Shown one piece after another: positions 2,999-64,000 of a stretch of DNA of 64,000 nt. The stretch is from the IMG/VR virus record IMGVR_UViG_3300032093_000041, positions 1-64,000 of that record. The stretch is one strand, 5' to 3'. This DNA is from a virus. The position numbers were made by a program, and so were the translations under genes. Each line of letters opens with the position of its first letter. The first letter of the stretch is position 1. The notes beneath the pieces are model-generated. The model worked only from the letters and a program-made list of their open reading frames with translations, ran no database searches and was not told the DNA's origin.

Positions 2999-3019
2999 GA
3001 CCTCGGTCGTTTCTCTAGT

Positions 3020-3037
3020 TTAAAGCCCCTCAGGGCT
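3020..3037 (-). terminator. Possible weak hairpin between fibre gene and holin-like gene
   Basis: Read on the minus strand, AGCCC and GGGCT form a five-pair stem around a four-base loop, followed by only two T residues. It lies in the 44-base gap before the collagen-like gene. The short T-run makes it a poor intrinsic terminator; it could be a partial terminator or an mRNA-stability element. Confidence 0.25.
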
Positions 3038-3042
3038 AGGCA

Positions 3043-30567: not shown

Positions 30568-32925
30568 ATGCACTTCAGCAACTTTACTGAAAGTCGTGAC
30601 TTTACTGAAACTAACTACAAGTCACTTTCAGGTCAAATAAATGTAAACGAGGCTAAGGGCGTTGTTGAGTGCTTCGTTGCCGCTTTGGGAAACAAGGACA
30701 GTGTCGGCGACATTTGTCTACCAGGATGTTTTACCGAAAGCCTTAAGCGACGGAAGCCTCGTGTCGTATGGGGACATAACTGGAATGAGCCAATCGGCAA
30801 GGTTCTTGAAATATATGAGGTCGGGCCAAACGACCCGCGCCTCCCTCAGAAGATGAAGCAGAGGGGTGTTGGCGGCCTATTTGCCAAAGTGCAGTTTAAT
30901 CTTGGTGCAGAAAAAGGCAAAGAAGCATTTGCCAACGTAGCTTTTTTTGGTCTTGAGCAAGAGTGGTCAATAGGCTACAAAACCCTTGACGCAGTATATG
31001 ACAATGGCCAGCAGGCAAACCTTCTAAAAGAAGTAGAACTCTATGAGGTGTCTCCAGTACTCCACGGAGCAAACCAGCTAACTGCAACGCTGTCGATTAA
31101 GTCTGAGAACCAGAAGGATAATTATTCAGAAAAAGGTTCAAAATTAAAGGACCCCAGTGGTGGACTGACTGCTGCTGGTCGAGCACACTTTAAGCGCACG
31201 GAAGGTGCAAACCTGAAACCAGGAGTAAAAGGCCCAGCCAACACTCCTGAGAAGATGAGACGCAAAGGTTCGTTCCTGACGAGATTCTTTACAAACCCTT
31301 CTGGCCCAATGAAAGACGACAAAGGCAAGCCAACGAGACTGGCTCTATCTGCGGCAGCATGGGGTGAGCCTGTGCCGCAAGATAGGTCTGACGCCGCTGC
31401 TCTTGCAGCAAAGGGTCGTCGCCTTCTGGAAAGATACGAAAACTCGAAAGAAAAATCGCTTGACGCCGATGTTGATTCAAAAAACCATGCGTTGATTTAC
31501 GCACCACAGGCCGCAGGAATGTCAAATCCATCTTCCGGGAGAATGGGCGGACTTGCACGAGGCATAGGAATGCATTTCGGTGGCGAAGTCGTCATACGAA
31601 GCGCCGACGAAAACATGGTGGTATTCGACCTCGCTAAAGACGGAGCAACAGAAACCCTTAGGGCCAGTTACCACACCCCCAATGAGGTGGACTTCATGTT
31701 TGGCCCAGCAACCAAAGTGCGTCAAGAGGTTGTATACATTCCCGTTGACGGGTCAATGGGTAGCAGGGTGTCTGGCATAGATTTGCCATCAAAGCCGCAT
31801 GGCTGTGGTTGTGGAGGCTCCTGCGGGGGCGCAAAATCAGAATGCCAATGTGGTGGTTCTTGTGGCGGCTCTTGCTCGACAAATCAGATGAAATCATGGA
31901 ACGACTTTAAGTCTGATAATCCTGGCGTGCACTTGTTTATCAAGACAGCGGATATGGACATGTATCAAGCCGCTCAGGAAATAGGGTTTCATCACGGGTT
32001 TGATGTTGAGCTTCTGTCCGACGGCTTTGCTGTGCCAAACATTGACTGGTATGGCGAGGGCGCATCAGATGCACTTGTCACGGCAATGGATGGGATTGCA
32101 GAAAAGTTTGCTTTTGGCAGGAGTGCTAGGTCAACAGCAAAAAGAGCAAGAAAACTTGTAAAACCTTCTGTGTTTGACGGAGATGGTGACGGTTTCATGA
32201 CCGGCCGAGACGGTAGGGACAATATTCCATACAAGCCAAGAATGCCAAGGACTGACGAGCCAATCGAGATACCTGAAGAAATCCCGGTCCCAGAACCAAC
32301 TCGTATCCCTAAGCCAAATCCAGACAGAACGCCTTCTAGGCCAGCGCCGGCCCCAGCACCCTCTGTTCCTCAACCGCAGCGTCCTGCAGTCCCTGCTGGT
32401 AGACGTGACATGATGCCACGAATGCCGCGTACCGATGAGCCAATCGAGATTCCGGAAGAGATACCAGTACCAGAGCCAACTCGTATTCCTAAACCAAATC
32501 CGGACAGAACTCCATCTAGACCGACTCCAGCACCAGCCCCATCGGTTCCGCAGCCACAGCGCCCTGCGGTCCCAGCAGGACAGCGTCGCAGAGAAGAAAT
32601 ACGTAAACAGATGATGGAGCTGCTCCGCCGCCAGTACATGGCTTCACGAGGCAAAGCAGACACGTATGCCGTCTATATGACTGTTTCGGAAAATCACGAC
32701 ATCAATATAAAAAGTGCACAAAATGTCAATAGTCGTGACATTGACTCGTTGCTGCTTGAGATGCCAGTTGAGTACATCTACGAATTCAAGTCACTTATTG
32801 ACCCCGTAGCGGACTATCATCGAATTAGTGTTGTCGCCGTGGACTCTGGTCTGAAAATATTCGAGGCTTCAAAGTTGACAGTGGCAGCACTGGACGCAAT
32901 GAGCAACGTCGTTAGAGGCTGGTAG
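30568..32925 (+). CDS. Long prohead maturation protease with C-terminal extensions
   Basis: A 785-residue protein; usual members have about 200. Residues 1-185 are an HK97-family (S78) prohead protease with candidate catalytic H70 (VVWGHNW) and S134 (EWSIGY), followed by a VELYEVSPVLHGANQ strand. Residues 192-292 form a domain resembling DUF6321 (GGLTAAGRAHFKR and MRRKGSFLTRFFTNPSGP). At 323-327 is SSGRMG, the motif found in the polyproteins. Next come a Cys/Gly cluster near 411-440 (CGCGGSCGG), a calcium-type DGDGDG loop at 537-542, two 60-residue Pro-rich repeats and a C-terminal domain. It cleaves scaffold and capsid proteins during maturation and may cut itself. Processing at SGRM is my inference. 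Confidence 0.85.
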   Translation: MHFSNFTESRDFTETNYKSLSGQINVNEAKGVVECFVAALGNKDSVGDICLPGCFTESLKRRKPRVVWGHNWNEPIGKVLEIYEVGPNDPRLPQKMKQRGVGGLFAKVQFNLGAEKGKEAFANVAFFGLEQEWSIGYKTLDAVYDNGQQANLLKEVELYEVSPVLHGANQLTATLSIKSENQKDNYSEKGSKLKDPSGGLTAAGRAHFKRTEGANLKPGVKGPANTPEKMRRKGSFLTRFFTNPSGPMKDDKGKPTRLALSAAAWGEPVPQDRSDAAALAAKGRRLLERYENSKEKSLDADVDSKNHALIYAPQAAGMSNPSSGRMGGLARGIGMHFGGEVVIRSADENMVVFDLAKDGATETLRASYHTPNEVDFMFGPATKVRQEVVYIPVDGSMGSRVSGIDLPSKPHGCGCGGSCGGAKSECQCGGSCGGSCSTNQMKSWNDFKSDNPGVHLFIKTADMDMYQAAQEIGFHHGFDVELLSDGFAVPNIDWYGEGASDALVTAMDGIAEKFAFGRSARSTAKRARKLVKPSVFDGDGDGFMTGRDGRDNIPYKPRMPRTDEPIEIPEEIPVPEPTRIPKPNPDRTPSRPAPAPAPSVPQPQRPAVPAGRRDMMPRMPRTDEPIEIPEEIPVPEPTRIPKPNPDRTPSRPTPAPAPSVPQPQRPAVPAGQRRREEIRKQMMELLRRQYMASRGKADTYAVYMTVSENHDINIKSAQNVNSRDIDSLLLEMPVEYIYEFKSLIDPVADYHRISVVAVDSGLKIFEASKLTVAALDAMSNVVRGW
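32236..32595 (+). repeat. Tandem 180-base coding repeat (two copies)
   Basis: Two consecutive 60-codon units within the prohead protease gene encode Pro/Glu-rich sequence beginning RMPRTDEPIEIPEEIPVPEP and ending in PQPQRPAVPAG. The protein copies are almost identical while many third positions differ, so the duplication is not recent or the peptide is under selection. It probably forms an extended, stiff linker. Confidence 0.85.
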
Positions 32926-32927
32926 AA

Positions 32928-33131
32928 ATGTCTTCCAGATTCTCTCGTCCGAAGAAGAACGTCAGCCAGAATAAACCGCAAATAGGTTATTCTAAACCTG
33001 TAGACAATCAAAAAAAATCGTACAAGTATCACTGCATGGTCACGGGCGATAAACGCGCTCTTCCTTGTGGAGGATGCGTCAACCCTAAAGGTTGTTTATC
33101 AAATTCGATGCAGTACAAGGAGATGAAGTAA
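32928..33131 (+). CDS. Small cysteine-rich protein
   Basis: A 67-residue basic protein beginning two bases after the protease stop and overlapping the next ATG (TAATG). The C-terminal half carries four cysteines in a CMVTGDKRALPCGGCVNPKGC arrangement, which could bind zinc. Placement between protease and the acidic 483-residue protein suggests a head-assembly accessory. The family is not recognised. Confidence 0.6.
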   Translation: MSSRFSRPKKNVSQNKPQIGYSKPVDNQKKSYKYHCMVTGDKRALPCGGCVNPKGCLSNSMQYKEMK

Positions 33132-34582: not shown

Positions 34583-34584
34583 TA

Positions 34585-34836: not shown

Positions 34837-34856
34837 CAAGCACTGGTGGTACTCCA

Positions 34857-37800
34857 GTGCAGGATGATGTACTAAAAAACAAACTGCTAGGAATGGCATC
34901 TTCTAAAGATGCAAAACTAAGCACGGCTCCTTCTTCATCTTCTAAAAAAAATACAGACGATGAAGTCAAAAAAGAAGATAAACCAGAGAAGCCGTCTAAG
35001 GCTCAGTCTGAATACGAGCAGTTTTTAATTGACTGGGAGCCGTCAGACCCATTGCCGTTTTTCCCACCTGGAAAAATTATCAAGCTATGCCACCTAAGCA
35101 ATAACCCAATGGTTACTGGGTCGGACTATTACATAGACAACCCTGAAACAACTAAAAAAGCTTATAAACCTAATAAAAAAAGTATTGAAGAAGAGTTTTT
35201 AGAGGTTAAAAACCTTGGGCCAAAACTGAGTCGTGGTCTTTCTTCTCTTCTGGCAATGGTTGCTAGGTCTAGAGGGTTGTGGGTAGATGACAAAAATAAA
35301 TTGCGTTGTCCAGAAGGAACACCAGCTGCCAACCAATTTACAGACATAACCGGAAGTAACTGCTTTATACCTTCGCCGTCTGCCGCAGCGCAAAGTGGTG
35401 CTCGGGCAGCAAGAAGAGCATTTGGTACAGCAGAACAAATGGCAGCGGGCATGGGGCAACGTGTTGACCGCAGTCCATCTGGTCGCTCTAATGCTGCAGC
35501 AAGATATTCTCCTTCAGACTTGGCGATGCTTCAGGCAGGAATGGACATTGGCGGAAGAATGGCGATGCTAGGCGGAGCATCTCCAAGCTTGAGACAAACA
35601 CGAGGAACGGGAGGGGCATCCAAAACCGGTATGCCCATTTACTACATCGGCAAAAGAGAAGCGATAGCAAGAGGTAAGGACCTAACGCGCGCTGCGGCTG
35701 AATTAAAAAGACGATACTCGACAAGTGCGCAAGCTTCAGAGGCAATCGTTTACCCCCCTGGCTCACGGTTTGCAGGTCAACCAATTGGAGATGTTCTAAA
35801 TAAGGCTGACTTCATGAGGGCAATGGAAGAATTCATGCCCAATGTTGACCCCAATGAATTTTCTGAATACTTCGACAATGCAATTCCTGGTGTTTTGAGT
35901 CTTAACGACCGCAGAGCGTACGTGAGAATGTTCGAAGCTTTTTGGCAAGCAACAATTCAGCAGATGACCGAACAGCCAGACGCTTACAAAATCATCACAA
36001 CATTTGAGATGATGGATGACATTAACACTGCTGTAGAAATCCAGGTTGACCCGTTTTCCCCTAGTCCTCAAAGCGGAGGAAGACTGGCTGGTGTTGGTGC
36101 CATACAAATGGCTAGACAAGCTGGCCTTATGGCAGAAGGTGGCGCTCACGTAAGGTTCAAAATAAGCCCATTTGGCATGTGGCAGCAAGCCAATAATGTT
36201 GGGCGCAATATGGACAGCGACGGCTCTGGGTGGTGGGATAGCCGCGAGGGCAGGATGCATTACATCGCTGTTCATGAAACAGGCCACGTTGTCGACTTCT
36301 ATCAAAAACTGAAGGCTTTTGGATTAGACCCTAATGCTATGCAAAGATATACGGCTCCACAAAGAGTCGTTAACGTACCAGGTGCTGGTCCCTCTGTTCA
36401 GCAAGACAAATATAACGGCGCGTGGATAATTGACTGGTCACAAGTGTCGAATCCTATGAACAACCCGTTCATAGATGACATGATTCAAGCTGCTGCACGA
36501 CTAAAGGGCACCCAGTATACCGGTTCACGTTTTAGTGGCCGAAAAATAGACCTACAAGATGACATGAATGCTTTTTATGCAAACCTTGTTTGGGGCTTTC
36601 AAAACAACATAAACCACGACCCAAGCGACTTGCCACTTATGGCTGCGCTCGTTGGTGGCGCATATGCGACAGACTCCGGTGTAGAGACAAGAGCTGAGTA
36701 TTTTGTCTATAGGCGTTTATTTGGAGAACTAAGAGGAGCGCAATCAGCAACACCTGGTTTCAACCCTTTCAAAGACCAATTGCAGAGCGGTCCATTTGAC
36801 GCGACTCCAAGCGATATTGACTTGCGAACAACTTCCGCTAGAAAGAATCAGAGCAACAACCTGCTCACTCATTTCTTGGATGCATGGGCAACACAGGAAA
36901 GACAGAGAGCGTTAGAGCCTGGTGGAGCTTTGTATCAAATCATTCAGCAATTACCACCAGGGCAAGCCATACCGCAAAGCATTATTGAAGACTTTGAAAG
37001 AAACGTTGCCGCGGATACGTTGGCAAGACTGAACAAACTGGGGCAGGATGTTTTTGGTGTAGCCCCAAATCAATGGAACATCAGTGGTCGAATGGGGAAC
37101 ATCCAAGGCCCTTCGAGCAGACCACCATCACTTCATGCTCAAAGAGTAAGAACTGCTGTTCGCTCCAACAACATACGCACTACACGTGGCAAAAAGCAAC
37201 CCAGCGTCAGCTATGGAATAAGTGGTCGGATGGGAAACCCAGACCCAGTAAAACCACAGCGTCCTCGCGAACCAGACAACGGACCATTTACTGGAAAATT
37301 CCTGGATGTACTCCGTGGTTCATCTACGTGGAAACAATTTGCAAAAAAATACCGCGACCAAGAAGTTGTTTTCTTTGATTATGAGACCACCGGGTTTGGT
37401 GATGACGGCAACATGCCAGTGCAAATTGGCGCAGTAAAAATGAAGAATGGGAAAGTTGTTGAGCGTTTCAATGTCTTTGTAAACCCTGGAATACCGCTGG
37501 GTGATTGGGCCAAGAAGAATCTTAAAGACGACAAGGGGCAACCATTGACTGATGAATGGCTTGCTTCAAAAGCATCACTAAAAGAATCTCACGAAAAGCT
37601 ATTAGAGTTTTTTGGTGAAGATGCTTTACTGGGAGGTCAATACACTCCATTCGACCTAGAAGTTTTAGAACGAATACTTGGGCAGGTTGGCCTGGAGTAC
37701 AAACCGGCTGGGGTTATCGACTCAAAGGCAATGGCCGACGAAATACTGCCACGATGGACACCGGAAAACCCAGATGGTCCAACAATGATTGACCCAAAAA

Positions 37801-40028
37801 CTGGTGCTAAAAAAGGTTCTAATAGCCTTGGTCCTTTAGCAGAATACTTGGAAGTTGACCTGGGAGATGGTTGGCACACAGCCGATGCTGACTCTGAAGC
37901 GTCAGCAATGATTATTGAAAGAATGCTAGATAGAGCCGCATCAAGGCCAGACACACCAAGACGCATACTCGACGTTGACCAAGTGCCGCTAATTGTTCAG
38001 GAGCGCCGTGCCCAGTACGACAGAGACATGGCGGATTACTCAAAGAAAAAAGCCGAATACGACCAGTTAATCTCAGGACGCATGGGTGCTTCCCAGTTCG
38101 AGACAGCAAACGGTTCTGTATATACGCGCCAGCAAGATGGAACATTCCGCAGAAAAAAGAGCGCAATGCTCGGAACCACAATCGAAGACACCGACATAGA
38201 GTCAACATATGACAACACAGTATTTGTCGACGCTGATGATGCTTATTTGATTATGGCGCAGGGTCAAAGAGGCGCAATCATCGATAAAGATGGGGACCTA
38301 GTTGGTAGGCGATACGACGACACAGATTTGGACAGTGCAAAGTTCATGTCATTCCGCCGCGAGGGAGACGACTTCGATACTGCATATAAAAAAGCAGGTG
38401 GCACGGTTCAGGAAGAAAAAATACCAGCAGTTCGTATCAGCAGAGAACCGCAGAGCGGTTTAAAGCCAATTGAGTGGAACAACAAAGACAACAAATTTCA
38501 TGTCGGTAGCCCTGTTTCTTCGATAACCATGGAGACAAGCCAGCAAATATCTGGCAGGATGGGAAATCCTCAACGAGCATCTTTGGCAAAAACAGTGCAG
38601 GTTAAAGAGATGCTTGCCTCGACGAAAAGCTCTGTTGGTGCAGCAATGTCGGATGAGTACATTGATTCCTGGCCTGAAATTGAATCAAAGCTAAATCAAA
38701 GCGAAATCCTTGCTCGTAAGCCATTGACTAAATCAGAAGCCCGTCAAAGGACTAGAAGTGGAATTCAATGGTTTGCTAAAGCATTGCAAGATGCAATAGG
38801 TGGAGAAGGTAGAGACCCACAGCAAACAGTTATGTCGCCGTACTTAAGAGGCGTTGAGCTTGACTTCATGGCACACATAGCAGAAATGTCTGAAGATGAA
38901 CTTGAGCAAGAAGTAATTGATGCCATATCAGAGTTTCACGCCGGAATAGACCCTCGCCCGCATATTCAGGTATGGCAAGGGGACTTGACGCGCATTATTC
39001 AGAATGGCTACAAGACAACCCATCAGGTCGATAGTGACCACAGCAATAGTCCAATGAGAAAAGTCTATGAAGCAGAAATAGGCATACACCCCGACGTCCC
39101 TGACACAATGAGGCCAGCTTCTGGTTATATAGTTCATACAGATTGGCTCAACGCAGAAGACAAAGCTGCAGCAGATTTGGTACAGCTAGTCCCCGGCGCT
39201 GACCCTGAAGTCAATTTACCTGAATTCACTTCCCGAGGAAATGCGGAAACAATGCGCGGTCCTGTTCATGTATACGGCGGAGCTGAAGTTATATTACGCC
39301 CAGAAACTAGCGGAAGAACTTTTTATGGATATGGTGATTCACTGAGAACTAGGTTTACCCCTGCCAGCGTCGAGTCGGTCGACCCAGACGAAGTTGCTCG
39401 GTCGATTATTTTTGGTGGAACAACACCGGTAGAAAATATGCTCGATTTGCTTCATGGGAAATGGAAGGGTGACTATTCTTCTAGGCGCTATGAAGCAAAC
39501 AGCCCATCAAAAGAGTATTATGAAGCCCTCGTTGTTGGGGGATTTGATGCTGCCGACATAGAGGAAGTAATAATCCCTTCTCCAGAGGTAATCCCTGTTG
39601 AGGTGCTTTTTGAGTCAGAATCGTTGCCTGGGCAAAGAAACGAAGACAGAATTGCAAGGGGATACGACACGGACGCAACCATACCTTCTTTTTCAAAAAT
39701 GAAAGAATCTCAGTATTGGGTTGACAACGCCGGTGTAAGCGCCGAAGATGCCGAAATTATAGCTAGAGAAATAGCCAATAAAAAATTATTGTCCGTTGGT
39801 TCTAATGTTAATTTAGCCCGACTCCTTGCGGCAGAAAAAATCCGCAAACAACTTGAGGCTGCTGGAGCAAAAATGACAGTCCGCAACGATACGGGCGTGG
39901 ACTTCTTTAACCCAGACAGCTGGATTCAGGACATGAAAGACAAGTCAATGGAAGACGTTGCGGAGGCGCGTATGCGGCAAAGAATCATGTGGTCAATCAA
40001 AGACCAGCTAGCTAAGGCGACAGCATGA
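34857..40028 (+). CDS. Polyprotein A: zincin, DnaQ-like exonuclease and further domains joined by ISGRM motifs
   Basis: A 1723-residue protein with a GTG start near a GGTGG site. It has four ISGRMG motifs, at residues 742, 788, 1072 and 1231. The first part has a C151-containing RCPEG-FTD-C motif and an HExxH zincin (H473, E474, H477) with downstream acids E610/E614 as possible third ligand. The part between 788 and 1072 is a complete DEDDh exonuclease: D841/E843 (FFDYETTGFG), a central PFDLEVLERIL, then H1007 and D1010 (WHTADADSEA). The 1072-1231 part is a small unknown domain. The last part ends in a domain (VYGGAEVILRPE, then YEALVVGG) shared with the 1267-residue protein. Function as virion cargo is inferred. 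Confidence 0.85.
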   Translation: MQDDVLKNKLLGMASSKDAKLSTAPSSSSKKNTDDEVKKEDKPEKPSKAQSEYEQFLIDWEPSDPLPFFPPGKIIKLCHLSNNPMVTGSDYYIDNPETTKKAYKPNKKSIEEEFLEVKNLGPKLSRGLSSLLAMVARSRGLWVDDKNKLRCPEGTPAANQFTDITGSNCFIPSPSAAAQSGARAARRAFGTAEQMAAGMGQRVDRSPSGRSNAAARYSPSDLAMLQAGMDIGGRMAMLGGASPSLRQTRGTGGASKTGMPIYYIGKREAIARGKDLTRAAAELKRRYSTSAQASEAIVYPPGSRFAGQPIGDVLNKADFMRAMEEFMPNVDPNEFSEYFDNAIPGVLSLNDRRAYVRMFEAFWQATIQQMTEQPDAYKIITTFEMMDDINTAVEIQVDPFSPSPQSGGRLAGVGAIQMARQAGLMAEGGAHVRFKISPFGMWQQANNVGRNMDSDGSGWWDSREGRMHYIAVHETGHVVDFYQKLKAFGLDPNAMQRYTAPQRVVNVPGAGPSVQQDKYNGAWIIDWSQVSNPMNNPFIDDMIQAAARLKGTQYTGSRFSGRKIDLQDDMNAFYANLVWGFQNNINHDPSDLPLMAALVGGAYATDSGVETRAEYFVYRRLFGELRGAQSATPGFNPFKDQLQSGPFDATPSDIDLRTTSARKNQSNNLLTHFLDAWATQERQRALEPGGALYQIIQQLPPGQAIPQSIIEDFERNVAADTLARLNKLGQDVFGVAPNQWNISGRMGNIQGPSSRPPSLHAQRVRTAVRSNNIRTTRGKKQPSVSYGISGRMGNPDPVKPQRPREPDNGPFTGKFLDVLRGSSTWKQFAKKYRDQEVVFFDYETTGFGDDGNMPVQIGAVKMKNGKVVERFNVFVNPGIPLGDWAKKNLKDDKGQPLTDEWLASKASLKESHEKLLEFFGEDALLGGQYTPFDLEVLERILGQVGLEYKPAGVIDSKAMADEILPRWTPENPDGPTMIDPKTGAKKGSNSLGPLAEYLEVDLGDGWHTADADSEASAMIIERMLDRAASRPDTPRRILDVDQVPLIVQERRAQYDRDMADYSKKKAEYDQLISGRMGASQFETANGSVYTRQQDGTFRRKKSAMLGTTIEDTDIESTYDNTVFVDADDAYLIMAQGQRGAIIDKDGDLVGRRYDDTDLDSAKFMSFRREGDDFDTAYKKAGGTVQEEKIPAVRISREPQSGLKPIEWNNKDNKFHVGSPVSSITMETSQQISGRMGNPQRASLAKTVQVKEMLASTKSSVGAAMSDEYIDSWPEIESKLNQSEILARKPLTKSEARQRTRSGIQWFAKALQDAIGGEGRDPQQTVMSPYLRGVELDFMAHIAEMSEDELEQEVIDAISEFHAGIDPRPHIQVWQGDLTRIIQNGYKTTHQVDSDHSNSPMRKVYEAEIGIHPDVPDTMRPASGYIVHTDWLNAEDKAAADLVQLVPGADPEVNLPEFTSRGNAETMRGPVHVYGGAEVILRPETSGRTFYGYGDSLRTRFTPASVESVDPDEVARSIIFGGTTPVENMLDLLHGKWKGDYSSRRYEANSPSKEYYEALVVGGFDAADIEEVIIPSPEVIPVEVLFESESLPGQRNEDRIARGYDTDATIPSFSKMKESQYWVDNAGVSAEDAEIIAREIANKKLLSVGSNVNLARLLAAEKIRKQLEAAGAKMTVRNDTGVDFFNPDSWIQDMKDKSMEDVAEARMRQRIMWSIKDQLAKATA

Positions 40029-40348: not shown

Positions 40349-40374
40349 AATTAGCCCTGCCGCAAGGATACCTA

Positions 40375-43057: not shown

Positions 43058-43058
43058 A

Positions 43059-50797: not shown

Positions 50798-50799
50798 AT

Positions 50800-53700: not shown

Positions 53701-54603
53701 AGACGTAGGGCGAACCAAGACACACTTGACTGGTGGAACTCTGCCATAGGCGCTGGCCTGCTTTCTACATCTCCTAGCGATTATGAGTCGATAGACGATA
53801 TTGGATACGAAAACCTAATGAAAGAGTCGCAAGTATCTGTGGCCATGCCTATTAATGCTGTTTTAAATATGTTTGCTGATAACGAGTTTAAAACGCTATT
53901 TGAAACAAACACCAGCCAAGGCAATGTCAACACTTCAGCTCGGGCCGCAGCAGAATTTGCGATGTTCGGAATCCTCCCCTCATATAAGGGGAAGAGGCCT
54001 GCTTACGGAATTTTGCACGTCGGCGGAATGACAGAAGATGCAATAAAAAACACGAACCAGTACGGACCCATAAGAATTGTCCTAAACCCCGACATGAATG
54101 AAAAGGTTACTTGGACAGAAATTGACTCACTGTCCTTGATGTCAACAGCTTCAACGTTAAAGAACCCGTCACAGCATGGGCTTTTTGGACAAAGGCTTAC
54201 TTCTGACACCCCCTTTACAAGGGTTTCGGCAGCCGACATTATCTCTCTTATCGAGCGTGGCCGAGATGTATCAAATAGCGCAGACGACAAGAGTGCCATA
54301 GGTAGGTCCAAATATGCAGAAGCTCAAATTCATTCAAAGATAACTCTGGAAGACATTCAATACATTGTCGTTGACGACACCGACTTTAGATGGGGGGATA
54401 TTGATTTTCCTCCATTTGGTCCTGATGGGATGATTCTGATGCAGGACGACGATGGTTATGAGGAAGCAGCAGATGAATTTCCCGATGACATTATGGATTA
54501 TGAAGGATTTATTCAGATATCCAAAATTGCAGAATCTCTTAACATTCCCGTTGTTCTGCTCAGTGATATAACAAATGCTGGCGAAGAGGTGGTGAGGCCG
54601 TGA
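50800..54603 (+). CDS. Polyprotein C: 1267 residues with three SGRM/AGRM-type motifs
   Basis: Begins two bases after the preceding stop. N-terminal cassette at residues 68-104: MNPTTARDADMDG, then EGIPTIRQGRG and DPTPGG, followed directly by AGRMG at 105. ISGRMS at 272 is followed by NPD, and ISGKMG at 735 by NTP; an ISGKA occurs at 46. Between 735 and the end is a helical region (TMQVLRGLISRVPGFG) and then a domain near 1068-1175 (AYGILHVGG, YGPIRIVLNP, YAEAQIHSK) shared with polyprotein A. The C-terminus is very acidic. The 272-735 segment has a KLWVRQDGGGRR beta-turn start and is otherwise unknown. The cargo role is inferred. Confidence 0.8.
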   Translation: MLIENEDEKPRNRKLRRNKKNWEKLREKPIVAIDTLSGGGLVSGQISGKALGGRIGRRIGGASKPMDMNPTTARDADMDGMVLEGIPTIRQGRGMPDPTPGGEVAGRMGREQNKEEFVGVDKLLRQHFSQFAKFQEWTKNKDWNAFHRNHFDWWMFPIPLGSNSYRDEYNIAGEPLEELRQNKRYMATLASAMRMYTRSIGWDMDSQEWINNAEIERGQEPVRSLNRARLLKIAQSAEAHGLDNELSSMSHMVNDMRSNGIPTGNDEYWNSISGRMSNPDRPNFPLNPKQGDTFSSDDPEDTRIWKFDGKLWVRQDGGGRRSATVGFRKAGGSGGKSISPSASSIRAGSERTVKYGSPAFDELWERRDKENEQADGTNLTFDWKNEESRLYYLSVFGKFPNTHPKNRKKVGWAKFGGGNEPGNYSGGTHSWIAAVKNQLRELGISLVPQEHPKMGDQYGSWISFSGSPGASAAEGASAKQLLSHLAETISPDTFYEHFEAWIRNPFVTAQKNGKDVGVRLAFNNDKEKLLNEYRRRVIALRDALYSHFGNEVDEVAETMVKPLTDSSGKSSTNTGNDWVDLTENARWASNLIKQQVSNILEQEKPRSEERLAYLLDSRLQSKLPDEIRQQIRTSPSFIRGLLQEEFKNRDWGRGDNFSQIDLMPSVDDETVSLIEELADEFIEKLISENADVSVVSDADSKNFIDSFVQDSSMRTSAAKPMLQSKLSNRIARGQISGKMGNTPENDIEAKDLEYDPDTPEHLGNHFTSKHEGYDVRPNPVDNVLDARNTGAPLEWLVPGSYHPEIKELVNGLTDKVLELGFASYLQTNPDFYMGSKDTAGRDAASEFRGWLGGWIGATVSKIMALGDFGEDFELDDGHRDFIRNFVGDMADTMTRFSDIPREDPDGRGGNTMQVLRGLISRVPGFGSGGSMTSDLSQEVNDIASGLAMRAIHAGLKINNMQRMGISDRRRANQDTLDWWNSAIGAGLLSTSPSDYESIDDIGYENLMKESQVSVAMPINAVLNMFADNEFKTLFETNTSQGNVNTSARAAAEFAMFGILPSYKGKRPAYGILHVGGMTEDAIKNTNQYGPIRIVLNPDMNEKVTWTEIDSLSLMSTASTLKNPSQHGLFGQRLTSDTPFTRVSAADIISLIERGRDVSNSADDKSAIGRSKYAEAQIHSKITLEDIQYIVVDDTDFRWGDIDFPPFGPDGMILMQDDDGYEEAADEFPDDIMDYEGFIQISKIAESLNIPVVLLSDITNAGEEVVRP

Positions 54604-54806: not shown

Positions 54807-54826
54807 AAGAAATCTTTACAAAACAC

Positions 54827-57800
54827 ATGACTGATACGCAGAACATAGACATTGAGCAAAAAGACGTTCTTGGGGCTCCGCGCAGAGTGCGCACTACCGA
54901 CCCGGACGTTTTCTCTGACCCAGAATCGGCCAGAGTTGCTGCGCGACGTCTTGGATGTATTGGGATTAGAAGATATCTAAACCGCTCAGGCGGAGAGTCA
55001 TGGATGCCATGCACCAATGAGTCCGACTACAGAAAATATAGCGGGATAGGTGTTTCTGGTCGTAGGTTCCGACGCCAGCAGCTGGAAAGAGATATCAGGC
55101 AAATCACCGGCCGAGGCAAGCTTGCAAAGAAGACTTTAGAAGAAGCTGTCGAAACGAAAGCAAGCAAAAAAAATAACTACACAAAGCCGGAATTGCGCGA
55201 GAGAATCAAGCAGCGAATTATGGCTGGCTCTGAGGGTGGAGCCCCCGGACAGTGGTCTGCAAGAAAAGCGCAAATGCTCGCTCAGGCGTATAAAAAAGCA
55301 GGTGGCGGATACAAGACTGGCGGAAAAAGCAAAACGCAACGTTCGCTTTCTTCGTGGACTAAAGAAAAATGGACCACGAGCGACGGTAAAAAAGCTCGCA
55401 GAGGTAGCTACACCAGAAGATACTTGCCAGCTAAAGCGTGGTCAAAGCTGACACCGGCGCAAAGAGCGGCTACCAACAGGAAGAAAATACAGGGTTCTCG
55501 CAGCGGAGAACAGTTTGTCCCTAATACGGATGCGGCAAGAACGGCACGCAAACGTTCAGTTAGGGGCGTAAAACACGTTGAGTTTTATGACGGCATCGAA
55601 ACAAAATCAATCGATGGTCTGATAGAGGAAAAGGCATTATCTCGTCGTTCTTCCAGAAGAACTCTTAGAACTCCTGGTGCGTTGCGTCCTAGATTGGGAG
55701 CAACCGGACAGGATATGAATCCCGCAACAGCGAGAGACGAAGACCTAGACGGCTTAGTTCTTGAAGGAATTCCCACAATTAACCGTGGTCGCGGTGTAAT
55801 TGACCCAACCCCGGGCGGAAGACCGAGTCGGTGGGTGCCAAGAATGCGGCCTCAAAGGACGCAAGCGCCAACACCGGAAGAAAAACCTCAGCCTCGTAGG
55901 CAGTTGCTCCAGCGACCAGAAAGATTGCCAAAACCAAAGGCTGAAAAAGTACGCGAATCTAAACTTAATTGGCTCCCAGAAGATGCTGATAAATGGACAG
56001 AAGACGATGCCCAGAGGTTGCTCGATACGCAAAAAGCTTCCGGTCTTTCTTACGGTGAATTTGCAAAACAGAACGGACTTTTTGCTAACGACGTTCGTGA
56101 ATCAGTAGAAAGACAAAAGTCTCGACGCAAAAAGCGCATCAGTGCTTTTCGCAAAAATAACCCCAAACTTTTTGCTGCTGTTAACAGTTTTGGAGCTGTT
56201 AAAGACGAGGCAATGGAAGCGGTTTCTAGAGGAAAAGTTAACAACTGGGGCTCACTTGTTTCATGGGCGTTTAAAGACAATGACTTAAAGCGCCAAAGAC
56301 TAAACGACAGGGCGGTAAACGACCTATTTAACAATGTGTCAAATGGTCTTGACCCAGACGGAAAGTCAGATGTAGTTCTTGGTTTTGTGCCGTCGCGCAC
56401 GAAACAAGGAGAAATGACTAAGACTTTTGCCCGAGCAAACAATCTTCCCGATGGTTTCGTTAGTAGATACAAGACTCCGAGAACAGCCATACAGCCAGCT
56501 AGAAGAATTACTTCCACGGCCGAACGAGCAGAACGTCGTGGAGAGCGACGCGTTGGAAGAATAAGCAGAGACATAGAGGCAACAGCTAGGGCGTTTGAAA
56601 GGTTTGACGCTATTTCCGGCCGCATGGGTGGGATATCAGGACGCATGGCAACACCGTCTGGCCCAGACTCACAGTGGACAAACCAAGAAAAAGCACAGTG
56701 GAAAGCCGGTCAGTGGCGTAAGAGGTTCCTCTTCGATGAAGCCCTAAGTACTGCAAGGGTTAATTTATCACCTGAAATGCAGGCACATATTGCCAAGTAT
56801 CCTGATGCCGCAACTGCAGCAAGAGCAATCCTTGACCTATCTGACCAAGATTTAGACAAGCTGTTCAAGGGTCATAATGACGCGCTCAAAGCAGCGAACG
56901 TAGCCATTAAACCTCCAAGAAAAGATGAACTTCCGCTTCTTCCGTCTGAAGTTGCTGCAGCAGCACAAATCAAACGTCCTCTCGTTAGAAGCTTCCTTGA
57001 TGAGTACAAAAAAATGGCACCGAATGGGACTTTGTCGCGTCTTGATGTTGACGTACTCTCTAATGAAGACATTGAAGAACTGTTTAATCGCTACATACTG
57101 CCAGAGATGGTCGACCCAACAAAGCTCGATGCTGCTGGTGTAATTGATGTTGCCCAGAGAATTTCTCAACCGGGCCAAGAAAATTCACCGCTGCGCCTGC
57201 TGGACAATCTTGCATATATGGCCGGCGACGATGCGATGAGCCTGGAAGCAAGAAGAAGAGTTCTTCAAGAAAAACTTGCCGCTGGTGTTGCTCAGGGAAC
57301 CATGACCCCGGCTCAACAGCAGGCAACACAAAATGCGCTTGATGCCCTAGATGAAGAACTAGCAAAACTAATAGCTGACTACGAAGCTGGAAAGCCTTTA
57401 GATTCGTCTATACCGTTGCAGCCTTTAGACGACCCGAGGCAAATGCCAAGATGGGCTGGCGGACGTAGGGCGCTTAGTTTTGAAGACCCAGTAACAGCAG
57501 ATGATTACATCATGTTTTTGTTGGAAAACAATGACATTGGCTTCCACCCAGAATGGGGTCCAATCACCAAGCCTGAATGGGAGAACTGGTCAGAAGACAT
57601 ACAGGAGAGGGCCGCAGAAGCAGAACGCGTCTATAGAGAAGGCGGAGAACTAGAAGCTAAAGACGCCATAGACGCTTTGAATGCAGAGTATCAGCAATGG
57701 ACACAGGTTGGTCTTGAGGCAGGATGGATTCAAGAGCCAGAAGAAGACGAAGAGTTTGAAGAACCGCAGCCTGAGCGCCCAATACGTGATGAGTTTGGTG

Positions 57801-60800
57801 TTCTCGATGAAGATTGGGTATGGAACACAGAACACGGTTCCCCCGAAGAGCTTGGCGTAACCGACGACCCAGCAACGTGGGCTCAACACCCGGACAACGT
57901 CGAAGACGACGGCGTAACCCTAATCCCACTTGACGAACTAGAAGAATTGATTCTCAAGTATGCGCCGAAACAGTTTCAAGCTGACCTTCTCGAAATACTA
58001 AAGCCAAGTGAGTGGACAGACCCACACAACGGTCATATCGACCAAAGATACATTGACCTCCCGCCCGAATTAATTGATTATTTTGTCGGACAAGCAATGG
58101 GAACAATGCCGCCGACCCCATCAAGCTCAGGACAGATGCCAACACCAAACCTTGGTGGAATACAAGGTGATGGAGTTGGACTTTCCGACCCGGGCGGACC
58201 AAGACTTCGCAAGGGCATACCTTTTATACCAAGGAACATCAACTGGGACTCTGCATTGCGCATGTTCCAGCGAATTCTAAATAAACAAGGAAAACAAGCA
58301 TCGTCAAAAGGCTCTTATGCAACTGCAAGTCGCCAGTATGACCCAGCACTTGGTGTTTATGACGACTGGGGTGCACTACAGCTACAGAACCAGTTTGTAG
58401 AGGCTGCAAAGGAAGCCCGCGAGCTTTACGTTACGGGAACTGGACAAGATTCTCGCAAAGCTCGAGAGCAGGTTTGGAACCTTCTTCAATCAGGAAGAAC
58501 TCCGCAAGAAATAAGCCATGAACTGATTATTTTTGGTGCAGACCAGCCGGACACAAATAGGCCTCCTCAGCCAATTGATTTGCGTGACTTGGTTAAAGCT
58601 GCAGCAACACAGTACGCAATAGATAACAACATCAAAACTTCAGATGTAACAAAACTTCTCAATGCAGCAGACCAGGCTTTCAATTCTGATACAGCGCGTC
58701 AAGAGGCGTTTAGGAGAAGCCAGCTTGAGCGCTTGCGTGACGACCTAACCCGTCTATTTAGCGGCCAAAGCCCACAACAAATCATTAGCTCTATTGATGG
58801 TCTGATTGAAGAAACAGAAAGAAAGAAATGGTTTGCTGACCAGGCATACAGAATTGAACGCGGACATGATGCTCGGTTAAGAAAAGCCGCTCTTGACCTT
58901 GCTGAGTCATATCCTGTTCCAACCGCTCGTCGCGCAATATTTATGGAACCAGATGGGACCATAACTGACAGCCCAAGCCGTAGAGCAAAAGCCCTCTATC
59001 AGGAGCCATACACTGGCGAAGTAACTGACGACGACACGAGGGGATGGCCTCAGGCGTTTGATGAAGGTTATGACCCAACACAAATAAGTCGGGCACGCCA
59101 TGCTAACCGCATATATCGCTGGTGGAGACAAAACTGGGGTTACATCGAGCGAAACGAAAATGGTGAAATTACTCGCGAATATGTAGGTCCGCTGCAGGGA
59201 ACACTAAAGGCTCATCAGCTTCACGCACGTAAATACGGAAACGAAGGTCTTGCTGGAACAACTGCGTATGCAACAAGAACAGCAGATTCTCGAGTCCAGC
59301 AGCTTCGTGAAGTAAAAAGAACCATAGAGGGGGCGCGGCAAGAGGGTCGAGGCATGGGAATATCTGGCTTCATGCGAAGCGGTGGGCCGAACCTTTACGA
59401 TGAATATTCACGGAAAGCAGCTCGCGTACTTGTTTCGGGACGCCGCAAAAACAAACCTTCATCAATGCTGCTTGGCTACGATTCTGACGAAATGCCAATT
59501 ACAAGAGCAATGAGGACGGCATTTTCTGGAGGAAGTGGGAAGTTCCTTGGAGCATCTAATGAGCATTCATTTGCTGCATTAATGAACCCCGAGAACGTTG
59601 ACTACTTTAAACATCTATCACCGGTGGAGAAAGACTACTTTAGAGCCCTCTACTCAAATCCAGACTTTGTCGTTGCCGTATCAAAAGATGTGACTGCACC
59701 GCTGCCGAACAGAACACGCGGTGCTTCCACCGTCTCCCCAGACGAAGCAATAATAAATGCATTCCGTTCGTCTATGGATGCAACGCGACCAACGATTTCT
59801 GGTCAGATGGGATTGAGGAGAACGCTAAGCAACGCTAGCAGAGTTGCAAGATACAACCCTGAGAGATGGCAGCGAGAATATTTAACAGCTAGAAATAGTT
59901 TCCGGATGACCTCGCCTTTCAGGGGCAAGAAAAAGCAGAACTACAAGCTTGAACAAATAACTCTGAAAGACAGCGTTTTTAAGCCAGTAGAAGGTCTTTA
60001 TCTTGTAGATGCAGATACAAAAAATGTTATCGACGGACCTTTCAAATCAGATGAATTAGGTTTATTGGCCAGTGAAAAAGCCAAGGGCGCAGAAACAAGC
60101 GTTATATCTAAAAATTATCCTCGTCCATGGGAGCAAATGCCTGAGATTCAGGAGCTAATTGCTAACGGCGTGAGTAATGAATTGCGTGATTTTATGACGC
60201 TGGACTCACACAAGATAAGCGACATACGCAGCACTGTTTACGACACTATTGAAGGCAAAATTAACCAATATGCACTAGACCTTGATAAGGGCGTCCCACA
60301 GAAAGCGTCAGATACGGCAATATTTAGTCGCGACCCTGATACGGGGGCGCTAATGGTTCTTCTTATACAAAGAGCGTTCGGTCCACACAAAGACGATACC
60401 GGTGCATGGGTTCTCCCTGGAGGGTTTGCTGACCCTGGCGAAACCGCACTAGAGACAGCATTGCGTGAACTAGAAGAGGAAGTAGGACTAAAAGTAAGTC
60501 CGACAGATGCGCGCGTTAAGCAGATAGGAACAATAACAGCACCAGACTGGGATGTGCGCTTTACAAAAGGCGTAGAGGTCAGTGGTACTGCGTTGTTTGT
60601 ATCTCCAGACGCTGCCTTTAAGGCTGGAGATGACGCGCTGAGAGCGCAATGGTTCCCTGTTCAGGATATAGCGGACGGAAAACTTCCAATCGGGTTCGGA
60701 CATGTCGCGTGGATTAAGAACGCTATGGCTCTGGAAGTTGATGACCCGGCAAACTATGGTCCTGACTACGAAAGTTTAAGAACAGGTTTAGACCGTGTTG

Positions 60801-63800
60801 AAAGAGCAACGCGTGCTAGGAATAAAGAACTAATTGAAATTTCAAACAGCTGGCGCAAAGAACTGAATAAAGGCAGAGCAAAAGCCGACAAGATAAAACT
60901 TTTTGACGAAAAAAACCTTGGTTCATATTCCGCTTGGGAACTAGCTCCATCAGACGACATGATGAGGCTCGGCTCAATATCCCGCATGAGGCTAATGGGC
61001 AGAGAGGTAACTCCAGAATCTATTGCCGCGGACGTAGAAAGAACCCGTGAAAACCGTCTATCCAGAGTTGGTTCAAATTTTGGTCCGTCAATATCTGGAC
61101 GCATGGGTGAAGGGTTTGAAAACAACATGAACGACATGCACTTAAGAGGCATGTCGTCTGACGAAATAAAAAATAAGCTGCGCCAAGAAAATGGCGTCAG
61201 TGAAGAGGATATAAATCGTTACGTTCTCTATAGCGGAATACAGTTGTCTAAAACTTCAGACAATGTTTCAGCTTCAGAGCGAAAAATGTTTGACGAGATG
61301 ATATCCAGCGGAGGCTCAATTAGAGACTTGGCAAAAAAGAACAAAATATCTTTTACGGAAGCAATGGATGTTGTTGTAAAAGTAGAGTCTTCAATCGGCA
61401 ATAGAGAGCCGGCCATAAATGCAGCATTGCGCAAAGCAATTATGAATGATTCTTTTATTTCTGGAGCAGAAAAAGCGGCGATGGTGCAGCGACTACATGG
61501 AGCATCGCGTGCCTCTGTAGCAAAATTTATGGGTATGTCGGTGGAGCGATACGGGGAAGTAGAAGCATCGATAATAGACAACCTAAAAGCTCGCAACCCG
61601 AAAATGTTTAAGTCTGCCGGTGCATGGTCTTCAAATCCAGAATCCTTATTTGCAGAACAAGATATTTTTATGCGTTATGTTCATGGCAAGCAGCCACTAA
61701 ACCGCATAGCAGAAGACCTTGGCATGACCGAAAAAATGGTCGATGGCATAGTAAAGCGATACGCCAGATGGAAAAATTCAAATGCTCCTCTAGAGAGAGC
61801 AGCAATCAAACAATCAATTTCGCAGTTTGGTTCAGCATTGAACGCTGGTGAAATTCAAATGATGCGTCGCTTGTCGGACGGAGAAAATATATTCCAATTC
61901 TCCGAAAGAACAAACATGCCGAAGAAAGCTGCAATACGCATGTATAACTCGGCAATGCGTAAAATGCATATGGAATCCGGAGTTTCTCCTCTTTCAAGAA
62001 ACTTTGACGCCAACATATATAAGGCGATACCTAAAGAGTGGATTTCTCCGTCATTCTTGTTCGAAAAAAATCCACCGAAGGCAACTAGGGCAATATCTGG
62101 CAAAATGTCAGACGTAGCAAAGAGCGCTAACAAATTTAACGCAGAAAAACGTTCTTACATGACATCCCCTATGTCTGCTTTGCGCGAAAAAGTAAAAGAT
62201 ATTCGCCAGGAAATGAGAGACCAAATACAGAATCTTTCATCTACGTCGGCTTATATGCATCCAGTATTTGGAGGGCAAGAAGGCATAGACAAAATGGCGG
62301 CGCTCGGTGCTTACATAAAAAGGACAATAGATGAATCTGTCCTAGAGGCTGTCGTGGATGCCGCACGAAAGTCAGGCTCACGGTTTTCAGGAGATAGAGA
62401 AGAAATTGCTAAGCGAGCAATGAATAAAGCTCGCAAATCTTTGATGGAAGATTTGTGGATGAAGAGAGAAATGATTGATTTTTCTCTCGACATGCATGAA
62501 ATGATTGAATCCGCATCTTGGCCATGGAGAATGTGGCAGCCAGACAGTCCTGAATGGCAGCGCCATAGGAACATCCCAGAGCTGATGGAAACATACAAAA
62601 CGAACACGCCAAAGGGTCGCCAGGCATATATAAATGCCGGCTTCTACATGCCGCTTGGCGATAATGAGATGTTTGAATTCCTAAATGCTGTCGAGGAAAA
62701 CAATTCCATTAGCGGGAGAATGTCAAACCCGAGACAGTGGGCTCAATCTAGAGACCTATACGACATAATTGGAGTTTCGGAAACAGCAACAGACGAAGAG
62801 CTAAAAAAAGCCTTTAGAGCTAAATCTCGCGTGCTTCACCCAGACGTTAACAATTCTCCAGATGCTACTGAGCAATTCAAAGAACTTGGATTCGCATGGG
62901 AAACACTAAGCAATAGCAGGTTAAGAAACCAATACGATTCATGGCGAGCAGGACGAACTTCACGCCAATCTTCTTCGGCGAGACCAAATAACACAGACAT
63001 TGCTGACGATGACATTGACGTAAGTCAATACACAGACCAAGACCTATATTTATATGACGATAAGGGTCGCCTATGGCCGCGGCATAACGCAAATAGAGAC
63101 GACTGGCCTACCGCTCCGTTTACTCAGTCAACCGTGTTCCCGCAACGCCAATGGGTCGAAAAAGAATTTGACGAATGGTCAGACTGGACTCGCCACGGCA
63201 TACAGCCATCACGCCCAGCAGGAAGTGCTCTATGGGGTGAGGGTAGAGGTACGCGAGACCTTGGTGGTGACGGTGAGATTGATGACGATGGACAAGGAGG
63301 ACCTGGCCCATCTTCTGGACCTCGTGGGCCATTTAATCCAACTTCAGGTAGCCCTGCTAATGCCTACTTCGTAGAACAACAAGTTAGGCGTGACCTTGGT
63401 CCGGATGCAACTGACGAAGAAGTGCTAGCTGAGCTAATCAGGAGAATGACCGGTGGTGGGCGTGGCCCATCAATGAGCTCTTCTCCTGGTTCAATATCGG
63501 GTCGCATGTCATCGTCGTTCCCTCCTCTTGATGACAGCGTTCAAAAACGTCTTGGATTGCAAAATCTTCCTAGTTCATATGACCAATCTGAACTTACGAA
63601 ACAGCATCCAAAACTTACGTTTGATGTTTACAAAGCCAACATTGGCGAACCATCTGTTGAAGTAACCACAACATTTGGCGGAAAGTCAAATGTCAGCAAG
63701 TATCGCTACGACAACGTTTATCGCCCCATTATTGATGCATTGGTAGCAGGAGTACAACGCCCTACTGGAGGAAAGCGTAAATTTGTTTCAGTTGGTGGGC

Positions 63801-64000
63801 CAGCTGGTTCAGGCAAGACTACAGACAGAAAAACCGGCGCTCACAATATCCCAACACCAGGGTTTGCGCTCCATGTTGATGCTGATGAAATAAAAACCCT
63901 TCTACCCGAGGCAAGAGCACTTCATGCTGCCGGAAACCCAATGTGGGCGAATGCTGTTCACGAAGAATCACGTGTAATAGCGGACCTTGCACTGCAAGAA
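54827..64000 (+). CDS. Polyprotein D: giant frame open at right edge, with DUF5872, Nudix, HTH, J-domain and zeta-like kinase parts
   Basis: At least 3058 codons with no in-frame stop; the 3' end is outside the window. C44 and C62 lie in a GCIG…WMPC motif. Residues 118-245 form a DUF5872-like domain (PGQWSARKAQML, GSRSGEQFVPNT). Residues 297-333 hold the MNPATARDEDLDG/EGIPTI/DPTPGG cassette. Processing-type motifs occur at 596, 603, 1657 (SGQM), 2089, 2423 (SGKM), 2628 and 2890. The Nudix box is at 1866-1888 (GFADPGE…RELEEEVGL), with four HTH-like helix pairs at 2163-2375. A J-domain begins at 2643 with HPD at 2671-2673. A P-loop (VGGPAGSGKTT) is at 2989-2999, followed by D3018/D3020 and an EES helix as in zeta toxins. 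Domain calls are strong; joint function as cargo is inferred. Confidence 0.85.
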   Translation, partial: MTDTQNIDIEQKDVLGAPRRVRTTDPDVFSDPESARVAARRLGCIGIRRYLNRSGGESWMPCTNESDYRKYSGIGVSGRRFRRQQLERDIRQITGRGKLAKKTLEEAVETKASKKNNYTKPELRERIKQRIMAGSEGGAPGQWSARKAQMLAQAYKKAGGGYKTGGKSKTQRSLSSWTKEKWTTSDGKKARRGSYTRRYLPAKAWSKLTPAQRAATNRKKIQGSRSGEQFVPNTDAARTARKRSVRGVKHVEFYDGIETKSIDGLIEEKALSRRSSRRTLRTPGALRPRLGATGQDMNPATARDEDLDGLVLEGIPTINRGRGVIDPTPGGRPSRWVPRMRPQRTQAPTPEEKPQPRRQLLQRPERLPKPKAEKVRESKLNWLPEDADKWTEDDAQRLLDTQKASGLSYGEFAKQNGLFANDVRESVERQKSRRKKRISAFRKNNPKLFAAVNSFGAVKDEAMEAVSRGKVNNWGSLVSWAFKDNDLKRQRLNDRAVNDLFNNVSNGLDPDGKSDVVLGFVPSRTKQGEMTKTFARANNLPDGFVSRYKTPRTAIQPARRITSTAERAERRGERRVGRISRDIEATARAFERFDAISGRMGGISGRMATPSGPDSQWTNQEKAQWKAGQWRKRFLFDEALSTARVNLSPEMQAHIAKYPDAATAARAILDLSDQDLDKLFKGHNDALKAANVAIKPPRKDELPLLPSEVAAAAQIKRPLVRSFLDEYKKMAPNGTLSRLDVDVLSNEDIEELFNRYILPEMVDPTKLDAAGVIDVAQRISQPGQENSPLRLLDNLAYMAGDDAMSLEARRRVLQEKLAAGVAQGTMTPAQQQATQNALDALDEELAKLIADYEAGKPLDSSIPLQPLDDPRQMPRWAGGRRALSFEDPVTADDYIMFLLENNDIGFHPEWGPITKPEWENWSEDIQERAAEAERVYREGGELEAKDAIDALNAEYQQWTQVGLEAGWIQEPEEDEEFEEPQPERPIRDEFGVLDEDWVWNTEHGSPEELGVTDDPATWAQHPDNVEDDGVTLIPLDELEELILKYAPKQFQADLLEILKPSEWTDPHNGHIDQRYIDLPPELIDYFVGQAMGTMPPTPSSSGQMPTPNLGGIQGDGVGLSDPGGPRLRKGIPFIPRNINWDSALRMFQRILNKQGKQASSKGSYATASRQYDPALGVYDDWGALQLQNQFVEAAKEARELYVTGTGQDSRKAREQVWNLLQSGRTPQEISHELIIFGADQPDTNRPPQPIDLRDLVKAAATQYAIDNNIKTSDVTKLLNAADQAFNSDTARQEAFRRSQLERLRDDLTRLFSGQSPQQIISSIDGLIEETERKKWFADQAYRIERGHDARLRKAALDLAESYPVPTARRAIFMEPDGTITDSPSRRAKALYQEPYTGEVTDDDTRGWPQAFDEGYDPTQISRARHANRIYRWWRQNWGYIERNENGEITREYVGPLQGTLKAHQLHARKYGNEGLAGTTAYATRTADSRVQQLREVKRTIEGARQEGRGMGISGFMRSGGPNLYDEYSRKAARVLVSGRRKNKPSSMLLGYDSDEMPITRAMRTAFSGGSGKFLGASNEHSFAALMNPENVDYFKHLSPVEKDYFRALYSNPDFVVAVSKDVTAPLPNRTRGASTVSPDEAIINAFRSSMDATRPTISGQMGLRRTLSNASRVARYNPERWQREYLTARNSFRMTSPFRGKKKQNYKLEQITLKDSVFKPVEGLYLVDADTKNVIDGPFKSDELGLLASEKAKGAETSVISKNYPRPWEQMPEIQELIANGVSNELRDFMTLDSHKISDIRSTVYDTIEGKINQYALDLDKGVPQKASDTAIFSRDPDTGALMVLLIQRAFGPHKDDTGAWVLPGGFADPGETALETALRELEEEVGLKVSPTDARVKQIGTITAPDWDVRFTKGVEVSGTALFVSPDAAFKAGDDALRAQWFPVQDIADGKLPIGFGHVAWIKNAMALEVDDPANYGPDYESLRTGLDRVERATRARNKELIEISNSWRKELNKGRAKADKIKLFDEKNLGSYSAWELAPSDDMMRLGSISRMRLMGREVTPESIAADVERTRENRLSRVGSNFGPSISGRMGEGFENNMNDMHLRGMSSDEIKNKLRQENGVSEEDINRYVLYSGIQLSKTSDNVSASERKMFDEMISSGGSIRDLAKKNKISFTEAMDVVVKVESSIGNREPAINAALRKAIMNDSFISGAEKAAMVQRLHGASRASVAKFMGMSVERYGEVEASIIDNLKARNPKMFKSAGAWSSNPESLFAEQDIFMRYVHGKQPLNRIAEDLGMTEKMVDGIVKRYARWKNSNAPLERAAIKQSISQFGSALNAGEIQMMRRLSDGENIFQFSERTNMPKKAAIRMYNSAMRKMHMESGVSPLSRNFDANIYKAIPKEWISPSFLFEKNPPKATRAISGKMSDVAKSANKFNAEKRSYMTSPMSALREKVKDIRQEMRDQIQNLSSTSAYMHPVFGGQEGIDKMAALGAYIKRTIDESVLEAVVDAARKSGSRFSGDREEIAKRAMNKARKSLMEDLWMKREMIDFSLDMHEMIESASWPWRMWQPDSPEWQRHRNIPELMETYKTNTPKGRQAYINAGFYMPLGDNEMFEFLNAVEENNSISGRMSNPRQWAQSRDLYDIIGVSETATDEELKKAFRAKSRVLHPDVNNSPDATEQFKELGFAWETLSNSRLRNQYDSWRAGRTSRQSSSARPNNTDIADDDIDVSQYTDQDLYLYDDKGRLWPRHNANRDDWPTAPFTQSTVFPQRQWVEKEFDEWSDWTRHGIQPSRPAGSALWGEGRGTRDLGGDGEIDDDGQGGPGPSSGPRGPFNPTSGSPANAYFVEQQVRRDLGPDATDEEVLAELIRRMTGGGRGPSMSSSPGSISGRMSSSFPPLDDSVQKRLGLQNLPSSYDQSELTKQHPKLTFDVYKANIGEPSVEVTTTFGGKSNVSKYRYDNVYRPIIDALVAGVQRPTGGKRKFVSVGGPAGSGKTTDRKTGAHNIPTPGFALHVDADEIKTLLPEARALHAAGNPMWANAVHEESRVIADLALQE

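Follow-up and report, generated by a model that had tools for sequence, protein, structure and literature searches.

The metagenomic virus record IMGVR_UViG_3300032093_000041 is 105,678 bases long, and the window analysed here, its first 64,000 bases, contains a head gene cluster in which four giant polyproteins, designated A to D, together carry many copies of a five-residue motif, ISG[RK]M. The cluster genes, all on the plus strand, start with a portal protein that has a C-terminal MuF domain (28189–30477; Pfam Phage_portal, E 1.9e-50, and Phage_Mu_F, 4e-7; phrog_2662), followed by a prohead protease (30568–32925) with an S78 domain at residues ~14–182 (Peptidase_S78, 3.5e-11; phrog_80, head maturation protease), a DUF6321 domain (1.2e-29) and a C-terminal extension. 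After a 496-residue protein come polyprotein A (34857–40028; 1723 residues), with an N-terminal HExxH zincin motif (residue 473), a DnaQ-type exonuclease at 838–1018 (Pfam; Foldseek DnaQ/RNase T) and further modules, and then a 214-residue protein (40375–41019), a 686-residue protein (40997–43057), polyprotein B (43059–50411; 2450 residues) and polyprotein C (50800–54603; 1267 residues, Pfam DUF3626 at 1023–1202). Polyprotein D occupies 54827–64000 of the window (full gene 54827–66610 of the record, 3,927 residues) and bears DUF5872-like, NUDIX, DnaJ, zeta-type kinase and GNAT modules; the gene of an HK97-type major capsid protein (phrog_10) follows at 66936–68279. This order is kept in the relatives examined, and in every genome compared the giant chains are located between the portal and protease and the major capsid protein. 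DUF6321 (protease residues 194–265) scores above the Pfam cutoff, and the DUF5872-like stretch (D 121–216) below it.

ISGRM occurs in 12 exact copies in the 10,838 residues of six cluster proteins, against an expected mean of 0.034 (first-order Markov shuffles, maximum 2 in 500), and is absent (0 copies) from the 17,262 residues of the record's other open reading frames. Polyprotein A has ISGRM at residues 742 (37080–37094), 788 (37218–37232), 1072 (38070–38084) and 1231 (38547–38561; VVGRM at the matching place in the relative G007), and B has one convincing copy alone, ISGRM at 867 (45657–45671). In C the copies are VAGRM at 104 (51109–51123; ISGRM in the close relative G001), ISGRM at 272 (51613–51627) and ISGKM at 735 (53002–53016). 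Polyprotein D carries a tandem pair at 596 and 603, ISGRMGGISGRM (56612–56647), a variant ISGFM at 1512 (59360–59374; ISGYM in G001, VSGFM in G010), ISGQM at 1657 (59795–59809), ISGRM at 2089 (61091–61105), ISGKM at 2423 (62093–62107) and ISGRM at 2628 (62708–62722) and 2890 (63494–63508); beyond the window it has further copies at 3326, 3613, 3785 (ISGSM) and 3621 (ISGRI). An ISGSM variant at residue 562 of the 686-residue protein (42680–42694) is uncertain. A preliminary description of this stretch, made from the sequence alone, had listed copies in A, B, C, D and the protease, and every one was found at the residue given there (VAGRM at C 104 appearing as AGRM at 105); its remark that the motif is often followed by Asn-Pro was too broad, as Asn-Pro directly follows just 4 copies.

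The copies lie at the borders of recognisable domains. By Pfam, the exonuclease of A is flanked by sites 788 and 1072, while in D the NUDIX domain (1831–1950) is located between 1657 and 2089, the J-domain (from 2643) begins 10 residues past the Met of site 2628, the zeta-type kinase (2979–3134) falls between 2890 and 3326, and an acetyltransferase match (3723–3754) between 3613 and 3785. Across five genomes, only 1 of 78 motif sites is inside a Pfam domain, compared with 8.5 expected (3 of 2000 circular shifts gave a number as low), and the J-domain starts 9–11 residues after the motif Met in all five. In an AlphaFold2 (AF2) model of A 720–1290, four very-low-confidence stretches in the body of the chain hold all four motifs: site 742 in a stretch with a predicted local distance difference test score (pLDDT) below 50, sites 788 and 1231 in linkers, and site 1072 in a low-pLDDT break at 352–357 of the model. 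Between these linkers are a confidently modelled DnaQ-like exonuclease and an alpha/beta module (AF2, Foldseek). The copies are thus predicted to occupy disordered linkers between folded modules, and both lines of evidence agree with the preliminary description, which had placed the motif at domain borders and had raised burial inside domains as the contrary outcome. Copies are internal and about a domain apart (median spacing 217 residues), and only 2, plus 1 doubtful, lie within 45 residues of a protein end in 59 proteins. Cluster proteins that lack extra modules mostly lack the motif.

Relatives were collected from IMG/VR as 280 stretches found by the protease and 313 found by the capsid protein. 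The preliminary description had suggested looking for the motif beside S78 proteases in other phages; what the same cluster of the relatives contains is local counterparts, or dialects, and a de novo repeat search recovered an own linker consensus in each motif-bearing genome. A first set comprises ISG[RK]M (this genome, G000, and G001), I[ST]GKM (G010), I[TS]GxM (G004), V[ST]GxM (G005), VVGxM (G007), PVGxM (G008) and [LIV]SG[SA]M (G012, G014 and G022). Within these M-type dialects Gly and Met hardly ever vary, and Ser, Gly or Ala follows in 80% of copies. A second set consists of GLSSG[RK] or R[LF]SSG in eight genomes and STRS in one, with copies spread over 2–4 proteins per genome and far above expectation: 23 against 0.29 in G030 (R[LF]SSG), 21 against 0.35 in G025, 17 against 0.17 in G034 and 31 against 0.44 in G029 (STRS). 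Because the screen covered about 640,000 patterns in each genome, a −log10 p above ~6–7 was required, and the reported second-set dialects reach 28–45. A possible further junction motif, TDSR (loci L167 and L195), was weakly significant and was left out of the dialect set.

Dialects are coherent within a genome. At P5, P4 and P2, copies from one genome resemble each other in their letters more than copies from different genomes do (0 of 5000 label shuffles for each position), and at orthologous sites 13R:2K in this genome stands against 1R:9K in G010, with overall Arg/Lys use hardly different (a Fisher test of this change used 2R:9K and 12R:2K, p = 0.001). The number of motifs climbs with cluster length (Spearman 0.87). 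Several cluster proteins have none, including B in G005, G007, G008 and G012, and no motif was found in the three genomes G019, G020 and G023, whose versions of this cluster are shorter, or in the isolated actinophages GMA6, Cantare and Gilgamesh. Judged from these sequences, a large group of freshwater bacterial viruses appears to mark its module junctions by a virus-specific peptide that is near-uniform within one virus. In Streptomyces phage Gilgamesh, gp48 (L123:4764–18638), a protein of 4,624 residues and unknown function with Asp/Pro/Ala-rich linkers and no motif, is encoded between a portal-MuF fusion and the S78 protease.

Selection acts on the motif at the peptide level, because its codons vary freely while its residues stay more conserved than their flanks. 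Between this genome and G001, 41 of 85 motif codons are synonymously changed and 8 amino acids differ; motif identity is 90.6% against 60.8% in the 20-residue flanks, a contrast somewhat inflated since the sites were picked from one of the two genomes. The Ser, Gly and Arg codons of the motif are mixed in this genome, and GGC is the commonest Gly codon. Three other origins were rejected: derivation of SGRM from a Shine-Dalgarno sequence or from internal translation starts, given the free codon variation and the prevalence of GGC; a DNA-level repeat, since codons vary and all six Ser and all six Arg codons are used in STRS; and an assembly artefact, since the motif occurs in many independent contigs.

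Homologous modules recur in different chains and different dialects, each bordered by the local motif. The ends of locally homologous segments lie no more than 10 residues from a motif in 15.8% of cases, compared with 4.8% when the motifs are shifted (at most 8.2% in 500 shifts); between genomes of different dialect the effect is weaker, with 8.1% against 4.6% (1 of 500). The J-domain module belongs to D in this genome, with ISGRM, and to A in G007, with VVGQM. The exonuclease module, at whose N-terminal border in this genome (A site 788) cross-genome homology begins, has ISGRM on both sides here and RLSSG on both sides in G030, at 59% identity; its borders are RFSSG in G034 and RMSSG/GLSSG in G033, where it is inside the protease polyprotein. 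As modules cross dialects with the local motif, and as R changes to K in concert, these sequences require a motif-reading factor that acts in trans and differs between lineages.

The S78 protease itself enters such chains. It is the first domain of a motif-bearing chain in 8 of 8 LSSG genomes (2,489–4,736 residues) and in the PVGxM lineage, and in G025–G034 (L206–L221) a single open frame joins it to UvrD-like helicase, exonuclease, ArdC-N and MPTase-PolyVal domains. One S78-led chain ends in ArdC and MPTase-PolyVal, starting 2 residues past a motif, and clear dialect copies are present in the C-terminal extensions of protease relatives. Effector modules in the relatives also include ADP-ribosyltransferase, UvrD helicase and ArdC with zincin.

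In what they contain and where they are encoded, the chains belong to the polyvalent proteins, a class that Iyer et al. 2017 (PMC5512222) describe in phages and conjugative elements and for which the relevant sections of that paper propose processing by a zincin peptidase. As there, the genes of giant multidomain effectors lie among the phage late genes, the repertoire takes in putative zincin peptidases, ArdC, zeta-type kinase and ADP-ribosyltransferase, MuF is a neighbour, and many disparate domains are joined per chain (NUDIX, DnaJ, zeta-type kinase and GNAT in D; the exonuclease in A; ADP-ribosyltransferase, UvrD, ArdcN and MPTase in relatives). Those sections differ from the present case in describing no recurring junction motif, genome-specific dialects or fusion to a prohead protease (PMC5512222), and in the literature that we searched we found no description of any of the three.

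On balance, we lean slightly towards the explanation that A to D are virion-cargo polyproteins with processing sites between their effector modules, and that a phage protease which evolves along with these sites reads them; that the related viruses have exchangeable-module cargo polyproteins with a lineage-private processing motif, a cognate co-evolving reader and, in several lineages, the protease in the chain, we consider reasonably probable. Under this explanation, A to D, and the head protease in related phages, would be chains of independent effector modules (here exonuclease, NUDIX, J-domain, zeta-type kinase and acetyltransferase), produced from the head-assembly cluster and probably taken up by the procapsid. 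The linker motif would be recognised in trans and most likely cut by a phage-encoded protease, probably at M|[GSA] in the ISG[RK]M dialect, and the freed modules would enter the next host by ejection. The motif would evolve together with its reader, so that each lineage would have its own dialect and imported modules would adopt it. RNA-virus polyproteins likewise have an embedded protease whose cleavage consensus is repeated at domain junctions; here the virus is a phage with a double-stranded DNA genome, and effector modules are exchanged among many alternative chains. The internal proteins of phage T4 have a single N-terminal targeting sequence that is removed by the head protease, and the comparison with them made in the preliminary description fits poorly, because the many copies here are internal and none is N-terminal. 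Its other proposal, virion-cargo polyproteins cut by the phage's own maturation protease, found partial support: border motifs, location in the head cluster and fusion of S78 to the chain in related phages make cargo polyproteins a good model, in which S78 is a candidate reader. We infer the head protease as the first candidate and the zincin of protein A as the second.

Several observations weigh against the processing explanation. No dialect motif was found in the major capsid protein of 22 genomes, a protein that S78 should cut; the likely capsid cleavage region, EFK[SA]L/NGANM, stays constant while the dialect changes completely; and the S78 domain is 72–87% identical across other lineages' dialects, limited change for an enzyme that would have to read unrelated peptides. 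The zincin of A is present in three motif-less genomes as well, and one LSSG copy comes 6 residues before a C-terminus, where a cutting site would be unexpected. The protease's own copy, SSGRM at residues 322–326 (31531–31545; AF2 linker 296–323, then a helix at 325–337), is ambiguous: it aligns with a family-wide NPxxGRxxxLA segment that motif-less relatives also have, and so may be a different element. The sequence is there as the preliminary description had it (residue 323), but membership in the set is doubtful, and it therefore does not count as evidence that the protease cuts itself at this place. A motif common to the capsid cleavage site was rejected, none being found there.

Cleavage at short consensus sites by a phage head protease has a precedent in SPN3US, whose gp245 cuts several packaged head proteins, and itself, at a short consensus with a P1' Ser preference, 13 of 14 sites removing N-terminal propeptides (PMC10052503). 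The likeness lies in a head protease and a short motif shared by several proteins, with cleavage here predicted; the sites differ in being inter-module, lineage-variable and not common to the capsid protein.

In the main alternative without cleavage, the motifs would be cargo-loading tags: short multivalent peptides that attach to the HK97-fold capsid on its inner surface, or to a protein inside the head, with the dialect following the binding pocket. Encapsulin targeting peptides (TVGSL, GSLxIGSLK and GPTGLGTSAAR) resemble PVGSM, LTGAM and GPTGSM, and are likewise short hydrophobic-Gly peptides in flexible cargo regions that serve an HK97-fold shell; in family 2B cargo, GPTGLGTSAAR lies between and after the cyclase domains (PMC8346489, PMC10960027). 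The capsid protein here, being HK97-type, is a candidate receptor, and many copies per chain could give avidity. Encapsulin peptides, however, are mostly terminal, one or two per cargo, and are not repeated module by module (PMC8346489, PMC10960027), whereas here nearly every junction has an internal copy and terminal ones are very rare. R[LF]SSG and STRS are unlike encapsulin peptides, several cluster proteins have no motif, motif-less relatives retain the core proteins, and the capsid proteins of relatives with other junction motifs are 70–91% identical. We therefore think tagging rather unlikely and favour cleavage over a capsid-loading tag, because each junction has a single copy, within the chain and roughly a domain's length from the next.

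About as doubtful is a variant of the cleavage explanation in which the reader is not S78 but the N-terminal zincin-like metallopeptidase of A, or an ArdC-type MPTase in relatives, with processing as proposed for polyvalent proteins by Iyer et al. 2017 in the sections cited above (PMC5512222). HExxH is present in protein A of every genome examined that includes A; in this genome it has no Pfam match, and PF18818 (MPTase-PolyVal) is clear in the polyproteins of G030 and G033. The N-terminal region of A also diverges fastest, from 72 to 23% identity, as a co-evolving reader might. The three motif-less genomes with the zincin count against this variant too, as do the zincin-bearing proteins of G008 and G012, which lack the motif themselves. 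A restriction of the zincin to motif-bearing genomes was rejected, since it is present in all. The 214-residue protein was likewise rejected as a motif-specific reader; its domain occurs also in the motif-less G019, G020 and G023, as a homologue fused to the C-terminus of their protease. Very improbable, finally, is a passive cassette without any reader, in which an ancestral peptide of the linkers was carried along as modules recombined: the motif does travel with modules and is located at junctions, but its codon usage is fully diversified under strong purifying selection, and concerted changes within a genome and complete dialect replacement around homologous modules need a selecting reader.

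If processing by a co-evolving reader is correct, these viruses would use a previously undescribed strategy, which would explain how phages deliver sets of host-takeover enzymes as polyproteins and how modules are exchanged, and together would form a naturally occurring set of motif-reader pairs that are orthogonal to one another. From the lineage-specific motifs one would expect a protease (or receptor) family whose orthogonal specificities could be put to direct tests and employed as tools, and the dialects make reader specificity directly testable. Junction motifs also give exact module borders, so that unknown effector domains can be excised, named and tested.

Two further elements recur in the cluster proteins. 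RCPxxxxxGG(Q/R)FTxxxxxC, which contains Cys, is found near the N-termini of A (~150–172), B (181–200, RCPP..GGQFT), the 686-residue protein (131–150, RCPxG..GGRFT) and homologues, motif-less relatives included, and is a candidate for a shared head-targeting element. DxDxDG occurs at residue 537 of the protease in the window, 75 of C and 304 of D, and also in loci L115–L118 and L099; its context, like FDPNAxDGDxDGLVQxxTxFER, is repeated near module starts in G012, G014 and G022 and resembles a calcium-binding loop. A search for the host by GTDB scan found no relative; an actinobacterium is likely, because the record encodes a WhiB-like regulator and the named relatives nearest to the protease are actinophages. 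At the start of the window, on the minus strand (14–2998), a protein of 994 residues with about ten collagen-like repeat stretches is probably a tail fibre.
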